This document shows, piece after piece, positions 45,048 to 63,312 of a stretch of DNA of 64,000 bases. The notes beneath the pieces were generated by a model that did no database searches, was not told the origin of the DNA, and saw nothing but the letters and a program-made list of their open reading frames with translations. Each line of letters starts with the position of its first letter. Position 1 is the first letter of the stretch. The DNA lies in assembly GCF_002863005.1 (NCBI RefSeq), contig NZ_PKDG01000019.1:62001-126000 (forward strand), written 5' to 3'. Position numbers and translations under genes: made by a program. The stretch is from Pseudoxanthomonas sp. (GTDB lineage Bacteria; Pseudomonadota; Gammaproteobacteria; Xanthomonadales; Xanthomonadaceae).

Positions 45048-45677
45048 TCAGCCCAACGGCTTCGGCCACATGTTGGCGATCTTGCAGAACAGGCGCGCGG
45101 TCTGTTCGGCGTCGTAGACCGCCGAGTGCGCGTCGTCGGCATTCCAGTCGAAGCCGGCGGCCTGCACGGCGCGGGCGAGCACGGTCTGGCCGTAGGCGAC
45201 GCCGGCCAGTGTCACCGTGTCGAACACGCTGAAGGGATGGAACGGGTTGCGCTTGTGCGCCACGCGCGCAACGGCGGCATTGAGGAAATTGAGGTCGAAG
45301 TGCGCGTTGTGGCCGACCAGGATCGCGCGCTGGCAACCGTGCTTCTTCACCGCCGCGCGCACTGGCGCGAACACGTGGTCCAGCGCCTCCTTCTCCTGCT
45401 TGGCGAAGCGGAACGGGTGGTCCAGATCGATGCCGGTGACTTCCAGCGATTTCGGATCGATCTCGGTGCCCGGCGCCGGATGCAGGTGCACGCTCGCGGT
45501 TTCGCCACAGACCAGCAGCCCGTTCTCGTCCAGGTCCAGCGGCACCGCGGCCATTTCGAGCAGGGCGTGCCGGTTCCAGTCAAAGCCGCCGGTCTCCACG
45601 TCCACCACCACGGGCAGGTAACCGCGGAAGCGGTGGGCCATGGGGGTGATGCGGACGGGTTCGGCAGCGTTTTCCAT
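45048..45677 (-). CDS. rnt: ribonuclease T
   Basis: RNase T is a DEDDh exonuclease that trims tRNA CCA ends and 5S/23S rRNA. Opening [19 protein letters not shown] supplies the first D-E pair. [13 protein letters not shown] gives the second Asp, and [17 protein letters not shown] gives the catalytic His and last Asp. Length is 209 aa. ATG 45677 aligns with the E. coli start, though no Shine-Dalgarno is clear. Confidence 0.94.
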
Positions 45678-45742
45678 GCGGGAAAGGGTAGCAGAGGGCG
45701 CGGGTGCTTCCTCGGCTGGAAACCCAACGTCGGCCAGGTTTT

Positions 45743-45895
45743 CTGTAGGAGCGACGTAAGTCGCGACCGTCAACCTGCCACTCGAGTGACAATGAGGGGG
45801 CCGCATGAAGGGCGGACGCCATGCCCCGGTTGCTGGCCTGCAGTGATGTCCTGGTCGCCCGTGTCGTGCGGTCGCGACTTGCGTCGTTCCTACAG
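45743..45895. repeat. REP pair of the GGAGCGACGTAAGTCGCGA family
   Basis: Arms 45743-45769 and 45869-45895 (27 bp) are inverted copies with two mismatches and a 99-bp centre. Each arm is a mini-palindrome around GTCGCGAC/GTAAGTCGC. The right arm contains the TAG stop codon of the hvfC-like gene (45892-45890). I see no gene in the centre. Confidence 0.9.
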
Positions 45896-46639
45896 TGCAG
45901 GCGTGCGCGTCCCGAGCACGGTGCCTTCGTCGCGCATGCGCACCAGCATTGCGGCGCCCTGGTCGGCGAAGGCGGGCACGTCGTCGACTCCTGCCTCCGC
46001 TGCCAGCTGACGCACCGCATCGCCACCGCTGCGACCGCCTTCGCCCAGCAGTTCGACCAGCCGGTAGACCAGTGGCGAGATCGCCGCGAAGCGCACCTGG
46101 TGTTCCGCATCCCGACGCACGAGCAGCAGCGTCGGTTCGACCGGCGGCGCATCGGGCTGGAAGTCCGGACCGATCCGGTGCACCGGCCATTGGTAGGCCA
46201 GCGCCCACGCGAAGGGCGAGACCACCGGTTCGCCCGTCAGCAGGTCGGCGTGCGGGTCATGCGCTGGCACGGGATCGTCGGCGATCTGCAGCGCCAGCTC
46301 GACCCATTCGTAGTGCGCGAGTTCGCGCAGCCAAGGGGGCAGGTCGTCGTCGCGCGTTTCCAGGTAGCGGATGAATTCGCGCGCGATCTCCGGGAACAGC
46401 GGGGTATGGCTACGGTGGTCGGCGTAGAAGCGGCGCACCAGCACGCGCCATGCGTCCTCGCCCAGCGTCTTCCGGATCACCGGGAAGTTGCCGGCCAGCA
46501 GGGCTTCGATGTTGTTGAAGAACAGGTCGCGGTAGATCGCCAGCCGGCGCGCTTCGATGCCGGGCGGCGGCGGATGCGAGGACGGATCACGCAGGTGGCG
46601 CGACAACGCGAACTGCATGTCGTGCAGGGGGTCAGCCAT
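45890..46639 (-). CDS. hvfC: DUF2063 protein, HvfC-like partner of the MNIO enzyme
   Basis: The product is a 249-residue DUF2063 protein. The N-terminal helical domain ([40 protein letters not shown]) is the DUF2063 core. The C-terminal part ([16 protein letters not shown]) resembles the RRE-like region used by such partners to bind the precursor peptide. In characterised systems this protein delivers the RiPP precursor to the DUF692 enzyme. It overlaps the hvfB-like gene by 8 bp. Its stop codon lies within a REP arm. Confidence 0.87.
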
Positions 46640-47483
46640 GCGTCGCCCGCGCCGCTGTGCCAGGAAGATGCAGCGCCTGCAGGGCGCGGATGCGCTGCAG
46701 TTCGACACACAGCTCGGCCAGCGGCGGGAAGTTGAAGTCGCGCTCCAGCAGCGTGGGGCGCACGCCATGCGTGGCATAGGCTTGCGACAGCAGCGCCCAC
46801 ACGTCGTCCTTCACCGGGGCGCCATGCGTATCGACCTTCAGGTCGTCGGCTTCGTCATAGTGGCCGGCGATGTGGTACGACGCGATCCGCGCCGACGGCA
46901 TGCGCGTGAGGAAGGCGCATGCGTCATAGCCGTGGTTGATGGCGTTGACGAATACGTTGTTGACGTCGAGCAGCAGGTCGCAGTCGGCCTCATCGAGCAC
47001 TGCGGTGATGAAGTCGACTTCATCCATCGCCTGGTAGGGCGCGGCGTAGTAGGAGACGTTCTCGACCGCGATCCGCCGACCCAGCGCGTCCTGTGCGTGG
47101 CGGATGCGCGCGGCGACGTGATGCACCGCCTCCTCGGTGAACGGGATCGGCATCAGGTCGTACAGATGGCCGTCGTCGGTGCAGTAGCTGAGGTGTTCGC
47201 TGTAGAGCACCACCCGGTATTCGTCCAGGAAGCGCCGCGTGCGCGCGAGGAACGTATCGTCCAGCGGCGCCGTGCCGCCCAGCGACAGCGACAGTCCGTG
47301 GCAGGTGATCGGATACTGCGAGGCCAGGGTCTTCAACGCATCGCCGTAGCGTCCACCCACCCCCAGCCAATTGTCCGGCGCGCATTCGAGGAAGTCGAAC
47401 GCCCCGGCCGGCGCGGCCAGCAGTTCGTCCAGCAGGGCGCGGCGCAGGCCCAGGCCGGCGGAGGCGGGAGGAAGGGTGATCAT
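46632..47483 (-). CDS. hvfB: DUF692 multinuclear non-haem iron oxidase (MNIO), HvfB-like
   Basis: A TIM-barrel iron enzyme of 283 aa in the DUF692/MbnB family, which modifies cysteines of RiPP precursors (oxazolone/thioamide and related products). Metal-site segments are visible: [58 protein letters not shown] and [12 protein letters not shown]. It lies 48 bp after a precursor gene with EGKCG repeats and overlaps the DUF2063 gene, the standard HvfA-B-C order. Confidence 0.92.
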
Positions 47484-47495
47484 GCGGATGCAAGC

Positions 47496-47524
47496 GCAGG
47501 CCCCGGCGCAACGCCGGGGCCTGC
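47496..47524 (-). promoter_or_regulatory. intercistronic hairpin between hvfA and hvfB
   Basis: A perfect 13-bp GC-rich stem, GCAGGCCCCGGCG paired with its complement around a 3-nt loop, fills the 48-bp gap. There is no T run on the minus strand, so it is more likely a processing/stability element or partial terminator that keeps precursor mRNA above enzyme mRNA than a full terminator. Confidence 0.75.
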
Positions 47525-47531
47525 TTCGGAC

Positions 47532-47930
47532 TTACTTGGTCTCGCCGGCCTTCTTGGTGCCGCCGCACTTGCCCTCGCCACACTTGCCTTCACCGCACTT
47601 GCCCTCGGCGCCCTTGGCGCCGGCATGGGCCTTGTGCTCGGCGGCATCGATGAAGCCGTCCTTGTTGGTGTCGATCTCGGCGAATTTCGCGGCCTTGTCG
47701 GGATGGGCTGCGTTGAATTCGGCTTGCGAGACCTTGCCGTCCTTGTCGGTGTCGGCCTTGGCCATGCCGCACTTGCCTTCGCCGCACTTGCCTTCGGCCG
47801 CCTTCGCCGCTTCCTGGCCCGCCAGCAGGTAACCCTGCGAAAGCGGCTCCATCGCGAACGCGGAACCGGTCAGGGCGAGGCCTCCGGCCAGGGCAATGGC
47901 GACCGCGGCAGGCTTGTTCGTCTTGGACAT
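47532..47930 (-). CDS. hvfA: HvfA-like secreted RiPP precursor with five EGKCG motifs and two EF-hands
   Basis: A 132-residue protein with Sec signal PAAVAIALAGGLALTGSAFA (residues 7-26). Core cluster 1 is EGKCGEGKCG (46-55). Two canonical EF-hand loops follow: DTDKDGKVSQAE (60-71) and DTNKDGFIDAAE (87-98). Core cluster 2 has three EGKCG units (109-123), then a short Lys tail. EGKC cysteines are the residues modified by HvfB-type MNIOs into copper-binding groups. The EF-hand insertion is unusual. ATG 47930 is chosen for its 9-bp spacing to GGAG; ATG 47936 is an alternative. Confidence 0.88.
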   Translation of the reverse strand: MSKTNKPAAVAIALAGGLALTGSAFAMEPLSQGYLLAGQEAAKAAEGKCGEGKCGMAKADTDKDGKVSQAEFNAAHPDKAAKFAEIDTNKDGFIDAAEHKAHAGAKGAEGKCGEGKCGEGKCGGTKKAGETK

Positions 47931-48025
47931 CGTCATGCTCTCCAGTGAGGTGCGGCGGAGCCGCACGGGAAGTGGCGACAGTGTAGACGCAGTCCGTTAG
48001 CCGGCCGTATGCATGCCCGGAAACG

Positions 48026-48055
48026 CCCGCGCCCCGCGTGGAAGCGGGGCGCGGG
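48026..48055 (-). terminator. GC-rich hairpin after phoU
   Basis: A 12-bp perfect stem (48026-48037 with 48044-48055, CCCGCGCCCCGC type) with a 6-nt loop lies 20 bp past the phoU stop, followed on the minus strand by GCGTTTCC. It probably ends the pst-phoU transcript before the hvf operon. Confidence 0.65.
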
Positions 48056-48075
48056 GGTGCTGCGGTGCGGAAATC

Positions 48076-48786
48076 TCAGACCGCGCCGGTGGTGCTGGTC
48101 TCGTCGCGCTTGTCGCGGGGCGGCAAGGGCTGTTCGCCGTGCACGAGGAACCAGATGTTCTCGGCGATGTTGGTGGCGTGGTCGCCGATGCGCTCCAGGT
48201 TCTTCGCCATGAACAGCAGGTGCGTGCACGGCGTGATGTTGCGCGGGTCTTCCATCATGTAGGTCAGCAGTTCGCGGAACAGGGCGGTGTAGTGCGCGTC
48301 GAGTTCGGCGTCGCGCTCGCGCACCTGCACGGCCCGGTCCGCATCGCCATTCTGGTAGGCGACCAGCACGTCGCGCACCTGGCGGGCGGCCAGCTTGCCG
48401 AGCGCGCGCAGGCCGGTGATCTGTGGCATCGGCGGCGACACATTGAGCGCGATGGAACGCTTGGCGACATTGGCCGCGTAATCGCCGATGCGCTCGATGT
48501 CGGCGGGGATGCGCAGGCCGGCGAGGATCTCGCGCAGGTCGCGCGCCATCGGGCCACGCAGCGCCAGGTGCATCACGTCGTGGCTGACCTGGTGCTCGAT
48601 GGCGTCGATGGCCTCGTCGTTGGCGATGATGCGCTGCGCGGCCTTGTCGTCGCGGCGCTCGACCACGTCCAGCGCGGCCTCCAGCTGGGCGACGGCGGTC
48701 TCGCCCATGCGCACGATCTCCGCCACGATGCGGCGCTGTTCTTCGTCGTAGCTCTTCACGATATGGTCGTTGGGTTGGGTGTTCAT
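48076..48786 (-). CDS. phoU: phosphate signalling protein PhoU
   Basis: PhoU links the Pst transporter to PhoR and represses the Pho response when phosphate is ample. The 236-residue all-helical protein has two PhoU repeats, each with the E/DxxxD metal motif (RIPADIERIGDYAANVAKR and FMAKNLERIGDHATNIAEN). ATG 48786 lies 8 bp past the pstB stop, making it the last gene of pstC-pstA-pstB-phoU. Confidence 0.96.
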   Translation of the reverse strand: MNTQPNDHIVKSYDEEQRRIVAEIVRMGETAVAQLEAALDVVERRDDKAAQRIIANDEAIDAIEHQVSHDVMHLALRGPMARDLREILAGLRIPADIERIGDYAANVAKRSIALNVSPPMPQITGLRALGKLAARQVRDVLVAYQNGDADRAVQVRERDAELDAHYTALFRELLTYMMEDPRNITPCTHLLFMAKNLERIGDHATNIAENIWFLVHGEQPLPPRDKRDETSTTGAV

Positions 48787-63211: not shown

Positions 63212-63230
63212 TATCCGCGGAATGTGGTGT

Positions 63231-63296
63231 GGGAGCGACGTAAGTCGCGAGTTTTCCCCGAGGCTGAAAGAAGAGCTCGCGACTTACGTCGCTCCC
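63231..63296. repeat. REP pair of the GGAGCGACGTAAGTCGCGA family
   Basis: Two exact 21-bp inverted arms (63231-63251 and 63276-63296, GGGAGCGACGTAAGTCGCGA plus one base) with a 24-bp loop sit between the convergent copper chaperone and thioesterase genes. The arm core is the same as at 45743-45769, so this is a dispersed family. Confidence 0.93.
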
Positions 63297-63312
63297 GCAA
63301 CGCTCTCCGCGG

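Follow-up and report, generated by a model that had tools for sequence, protein, structure and literature searches.

The captophorins HvfA (oxazolin) and FonA (fontiphorin) carry EGKCG cores and are served by an HvfB-type MNIO and an HvfC-type partner. HvfBC-type enzymes install 5-thiooxazoles on EGKCG, and the resulting peptides bind copper (PMC12668002, PMC13419390); on the accessible portions of these papers, the oxazolone and thioamide groups that a preliminary description of the locus reported here gave for HvfB-type MNIOs are outdated chemistry. All six EGKCG cysteines of HvfA are modified by HvfBC, and the signal aids recognition: without it HvfA receives, on average, fewer than one modification (PMC13419390). 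Two shortened FonA substrates were tried, and modification was confined to the version with two repeats (PMC12668002). A mass shift of -12 Da was reported for a lipidated relative and fits a loss of 4 Da from each of three EGKCG (PMC12636315).

A second line of work concerns EGKCG precursors that also contain EF-hands. Leprevost et al. 2025 (PMC12452194) described this class, including a Buf_EGKCG|EF-hand_5 chimaera, and pointed to EfhP as possibly acting in the homeostasis of Ca2+ or in signalling, so the statement in the preliminary description that no EGKCG precursor with an EF-hand core had been described does not stand. EfhP of Pseudomonas aeruginosa (PA4107) has EF loops at residues 88-99 and 115-126, and its partners in a putative operon are a DUF692 and a DUF2063 gene, PA4106 and PA4105 (PMC4053335); it carries four EGKCG repeats, and its authors propose dual Ca/Fe sensing (mBio 2024; PMC11559002). 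The protein binds Ca2+ with a Kd of 13.7 uM at about two sites after decalcification and does not bind Mg2+, its Ca2+-free form is probably a molten globule whose folding needs Ca2+, and Ca2+ increases its surface hydrophobicity (PMC9132961). The folding data come from EfhP that was expressed in E. coli, lacked the signal peptide and was presumably unmodified, the accessible text mentioning no partner enzymes (PMC9132961). At high Ca2+, EfhP mutants differ in stress proteins and in virulence traits, and iron-uptake genes are under EfhP control (PMC4053335, PMC11559002). The EGKCG-plus-EF-hand class, its link to EfhP and the idea of a dual-metal protein are thus already in print.

The operon that we describe, in a 64,000-nucleotide stretch of Pseudoxanthomonas DNA (the window), is a fresh example of this described class. 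It is real and conserved, and its arrangement of EGKCG on both sides of the EF-hands merits a report. Its features are as follows, in window coordinates, all on the reverse strand:

47532..47930 (-), hvfA-like precursor, 132 aa
precursor residues about 1-26, Sec-like signal peptide (by eye: Lys near the start, a hydrophobic run, AFA)
47766..47795 (-), N-side EGKCG pair (codons for residues 46-50 and 51-55)
47637..47753 (-), EF-hand pair from first to last loop residue, residues 60-98
47562..47606 (-), C-side EGKCG triplet (codons for residues 109-113, 114-118 and 119-123)
46632..47483 (-), MNIO (DUF692/PF05114), HvfB-family maturase, 283 aa
45890..46639 (-), HvfC-family partner protein (DUF2063 + NGO1945_C), 249 aa

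Re-examination of the sequence and its frames bore out the coordinates, strand, reading frames and three-gene layout given earlier. The genes run in the order A-B-C, with 48 bases between the precursor and MNIO genes and an 8 bp overlap between the MNIO and DUF2063 genes. The MNIO scores 344.1 bits against PF05114 and 428.7 bits against NF003818 ('HvfB family', cut-off 360), and the DUF2063 protein 305.1 bits against NF050145 (HvfC family, cut-off 142); their nearest solved structures by sequence are 3BWW (E 4.8e-72) and 3DEE (E 3.4e-9), respectively. Family scores and gene order together back the initial reading as an hvfABC-type EGKCG RiPP operon. Upstream lie a PhoU gene and an ABC ATPase gene, by inference PstB. 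The adjoining gene downstream encodes an RNase_T exonuclease, and there is no DoxX gene beside the operon, as had been noted; the genome's two DoxX matches both lie outside this contig. A scan of the region for promoters and terminators returned nothing, with no sigma-70-like promoter found in 45600-48400, and a PHROGs search was likewise empty.

The same genome encodes two more MNIO operons (L001 on contig C23 and L002 on contig C5), each with a DoxX gene. Judged by eye, one of their precursors is small, Cys-bearing and similar to DUF2282/bufferin 1, and the other has CKGxNACKG-like repeats. Contig C23 could be foreign, the assembly having a reported contamination of 3.58%. A REP-like element, GTAGGAGCGACGTAAGTCGCGA, occurs in the window as two inverted pairs (45745-45893 and 63229-63298) with 0-2 mismatches, where chance predicts 0, and one copy overlaps the final bases of the hvfC-like gene.

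The precursor itself conforms to its first description as a protein of 132 residues with a Sec-like signal (by eye) and five EGKCG motifs in two clusters flanking two EF-hand loops. Both loops are canonical (DTDKDGKVSQAE, residues 60-71; DTNKDGFIDAAE, residues 87-98), and each of the five cysteines of the mature protein sits inside an EGKCG. Matches to EF-hand_5 (39.5 bits, cut-off 25.9) and EF-hand_1 (37.3 bits, cut-off 25.4) each cover two stretches, and the NCBIfam EGKCG motif domain KCGExKCG_twice (NF050137) is matched at 37.9 bits, over its cut-off of 19.5, and by 40 of 41 aligned precursor sequences at E <= 0.001. The HvfA (oxazolin) equivalog NF050188 is not reached (26.2 bits against a cut-off of 95). 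We also considered two other EF-hand families and rejected them for the precursor: lanmodulin (NF053806, 26.8 bits against a cut-off of 135) and XopAW, whose score falls far under the cut-off. Their models are matched by 28/41 and 40/41 of the aligned relatives at E <= 0.001, which we read as a reflection of shared EF-hands; lanmodulin 6MI5 is the best PDB chain by sequence for the precursor (E 1.8e-4), over residues 53-103 only.

How does this precursor differ from those already described? With the Buf_EGKCG|EF-hand_5 chimaera it has in common an N-terminal hydrophobic segment (by eye), a short EGKCG region, two EF-hand_5 domains and the MNIO and DUF2063 genes. In the chimaera, however, the EF-hands are fused C-terminal to the EGKCG region (PMC12452194), whereas the window precursor adds a second EGKCG cluster after them; this two-sided layout was not found in the accessible text of that paper and may be covered elsewhere in it. 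No 17-residue double-EGKCG repeat was seen by eye in the window precursor. EfhP shares with it EGKCG repeats, the DUF692 and DUF2063 genes and a spacing of 27 residues between EF loops. HvfA and FonA share its EGKCG cores and both enzyme types, but in the accessible accounts of them EF-hands are not mentioned.

To place the locus among its relatives, we used the window MNIO as query against whole genomes of its own family (137/198 genomes matching at E <= 1e-80; 150 loci examined among the matches listed) and of its class (190/369 genomes matching at E <= 1e-50; the best 110 loci, E <= 2.5e-94, examined among the matches listed), and took as precursor an upstream EGKCG-type reading frame with at least one KCG; all frequencies refer to these 150 and 110 loci. 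EF-hands were counted by pattern, so degenerate loops may escape. With the window included, the 150 family loci comprise 93 with EF loops in the precursor, 56 with KCG and no EF loop, and 1 without such a frame; among the EF-less rows, one has masked bases, which makes its call unsure. Five of the 93 have one detected loop and one has three. EF loops occur at 8 of the 110 class loci (window included), with KCG frames lacking them at 80 and no KCG frame at 22, 4 of which have little upstream room. The window's own family contributes 5 of the 110, itself included, and the eight EF loci divide into 3 from that family, 1 from the same order and 4 from other parts of the class. The gene after the MNIO encodes an HvfC homologue at 149/150 family loci and at 107 of the 109 class loci with room. 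The conservation check proposed at the outset thus comes out in favour of a recurrent architecture, and its confinement to one strain is excluded.

A separate set of named relatives, the best 80 of 261 confirmed, was picked by likeness to the precursor and kept out of these frequencies. It is drawn mostly from Pseudoxanthomonas, Luteimonas, Lysobacter and Pseudomonas, and its closest member is Pseudoxanthomonas sp. Root630, with a precursor at 83%. Within these best 80, the fetched DNA of 28 loci (among L053-L113 and L369-L394) contains no MNIO; 27 of the 28 are titled Pseudomonas, and at least 3 stop no more than about 300 bp further downstream. Each of the 26 searched genomes with such stand-alone precursors encodes an MNIO elsewhere (in one, a fragment only), and in 23 the best MNIO has no precursor with at least two KCG inside 1.6 kb upstream, these 23 including one with only 492 bp of upstream room and the one fragment. 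This suggests that stand-alone precursor and maturase are encoded at separate loci and act in trans.

The 93 family EF precursors fall into distinct layouts. KCG motifs flank the EF-hands on both sides in 61 and are confined to the N side in 16 and to the C side in 15, with 1 unclear; exact EGKCG is likewise two-sided in 61/93, and all 61 have at least two C-side copies. EGKCG copy number ranges from 0 to 7 on the N side and from 0 to 9 on the C side. An NGKK.P..LF-like tail after the EF-hands marks 14 of the 16 N-only precursors and the unclear one, and is present in none of the 61 two-sided and none of the 15 C-only precursors; of the two tail-less N-only precursors, one (L272) has a variant tail by eye. 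The N-only precursors are those that we take as EfhP-like. By a criterion derived from these N-side-only members, the window precursor has no NGKx(x)P..LF-like C-terminal tail. KCG placement and tail distribution thus assign it to a two-sided subtype that is separate from the N-only, EfhP-like precursors. The frequency of EF-hand precursors (93/150), the two-sided layout (61/93) and the tail split (0/61 against 14/16) are new here. One C-side-only precursor, L363, has a single detected EF loop followed by CGEGKCG clusters and no L..GY box by eye, and its MNIO forms a long branch on the enzyme tree.

Could such an architecture be a chance fusion with non-functional loops? Among 100,000 shuffles of the mature precursor, at least one strict EF loop arose in 39 and two in none, and at least two EGKCG in 1. 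In codon comparisons of the window precursor with three close relatives (L034, L144 and L150), the 25 EGKCG codons show 0 non-synonymous and 2-6 synonymous differences in 3/3 pairs, and dN/dS is about 0.20-0.28 in the EF region and about 0.27-0.5 in the remainder of the mature precursor. Across the 84 distinct two-loop family precursors, D1, G6 and E12 are identical in both loops of 84/84 and the spacing is 27 in 71/84, fixity that arises partly from the selection of these precursors by loop pattern; loop positions 2, 4, 7 and 10 vary, and positions 9 and 11 of loop 1 are nearly fixed. The invariant columns of the 41 aligned sequences include D60, G65, E71, D87, G92, E98 and C54. With EF-loop precursors at 93/150 family loci and both loops and motifs under constraint, a chance fusion is highly improbable; nothing was found in its favour, and survey counts, shuffles and codon constraint alike contradict chance or decay.

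AlphaFold2, run with the 41 sequences, predicts the EF-hand pair with confidence (residues 61-100, mean pLDDT 88-91 per 10-residue block) and leaves both EGKCG arms below pLDDT 50 (overall mean 59.7, pTM 0.41). The best seven Foldseek matches in the PDB are EF-hand proteins, headed by polcalcin (E 1.7e-2, probability 1.00); none reaches E 0.001, as expected for a model over half of which is disordered.

On a quick FastTree tree of 306 MNIO rows, many of whose branches are weak and which includes relatives picked by likeness to the precursor, 282 rows could be labelled EF or no-EF. The label changes at least 15 times, against a shuffled mean of 94.2; the starred branches force at least 8 changes, and removal of ten long rows still leaves 15. 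The tree shows that the precursor's EF-hand was gained or lost repeatedly, giving recurrence and not direction. Among eight other loci of the same genus, seven have a two-sided EF precursor and one has a precursor without EF-hands in the same operon place. A conserved L..GY box, located after the signal peptide and before the first KCG, is found in 78/93 EF and 52/56 non-EF precursors of the family (6/8 and 66/80 in the class), and may belong to the site that the HvfC-type partner recognises.

With a probability of roughly two in three, we read the window as holding a captophorin/oxazolin-type operon of the EGKCG-plus-EF-hand class, whose product would be a periplasmic metal buffer. By homology, the HvfC-like and HvfB-like proteins would recognise the unexported precursor with its signal peptide as leader, and the EGKCG cysteines would be oxidised to 5-thiooxazoles in the cytoplasm. 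Cytoplasmic Ca2+ is about 0.1 uM. On the EfhP data and general knowledge, a level so far below the Kd of EfhP would leave the EF-hand pair unfolded, so that the enzymes could reach the chain and Sec could export it. After export, periplasmic Ca2+ would fold the pair and leave two flexible arms, one with two thiooxazoles and the other with three, to capture copper or a different soft metal. The protein would act mainly as a periplasmic metal buffer, with any Ca-dependent tuning of metal binding secondary. We favour this model because of the A-B-C order, the HvfB and HvfC scores and the near-constant presence of HvfC after the family MNIO; because of the codon constraint, the fixed loop residues and the modelled EF-hand pair with disordered arms; and because of the signal dependence of HvfA, the two-repeat result for FonA and the Ca2+-dependent folding of EfhP, as given in the accessible parts of PMC13419390, PMC12668002 and PMC9132961. 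Against it, in the accessible portions of the literature found, no member of the EF-hand class is reported as modified or copper-binding, and EfhP is studied as a Ca2+ sensor for iron uptake and virulence, not copper.

In another reading, the protein is mainly a periplasmic Ca2+ sensor or signalling protein like EfhP, and its modified cysteines, instead of buffering metal, would respond to a second signal (iron, copper or redox) or engage a partner. The mutant phenotypes at high Ca2+, the control of iron uptake, the Ca2+-induced rise in surface hydrophobicity and the proposed dual Ca/Fe sensing, all as available in the EfhP papers, speak for it; the window protein, however, is without the EfhP-like N-only tail and has a second EGKCG cluster, and the widely variable EGKCG copy number is as expected of a buffer. 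We regard this reading as rather unlikely. The EF-hand pair could alternatively be a passive structural module, providing solubility, protease resistance or spacing in an ordinary copper-buffer precursor with no calcium regulation. The recurrent EF/no-EF changes on the enzyme tree, the same-genus locus with an EF-less precursor and the L..GY box common to both kinds of precursor fit such a module, but the Ca-ligand positions are conserved, in part through the search pattern, amid variation at loop positions 2, 4, 7 and 10, and EfhP folding is Ca2+-dependent (PMC9132961, accessible portion); we consider it somewhat doubtful. Also against the favoured model, the enzyme lineage can dispense with the EF-hand: at 56/150 family loci the KCG precursor has no detected EF loop, and only 8/110 class loci have one, counts that argue against an essential Ca step. 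The repeated gain or loss of the EF-hand likewise speaks against an essential role. Calcium gating of metal capture, as first proposed, is speculation, and a coupling of Ca2+ to copper binding finds no support in the data found. We think it quite unlikely that the two-sided layout is a separate functional subtype in which Ca2+ folding on export would bring the thiooxazole arms together and hold copper between them, Ca would set the affinity, both ions would be sensed or buffered, and the Ca-free state in the cytoplasm would let the enzymes reach both arms.

The operon offers a compact case in which to ask whether EfhP and other EGKCG precursors with EF-hands act as copper RiPPs, as Ca2+ sensors or in both ways. 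Our survey splits the EF-hand precursors into two subtypes, and the same-genus pairs that occupy the same operon place with and without EF-hands are natural material for probing the role of the EF-hand.
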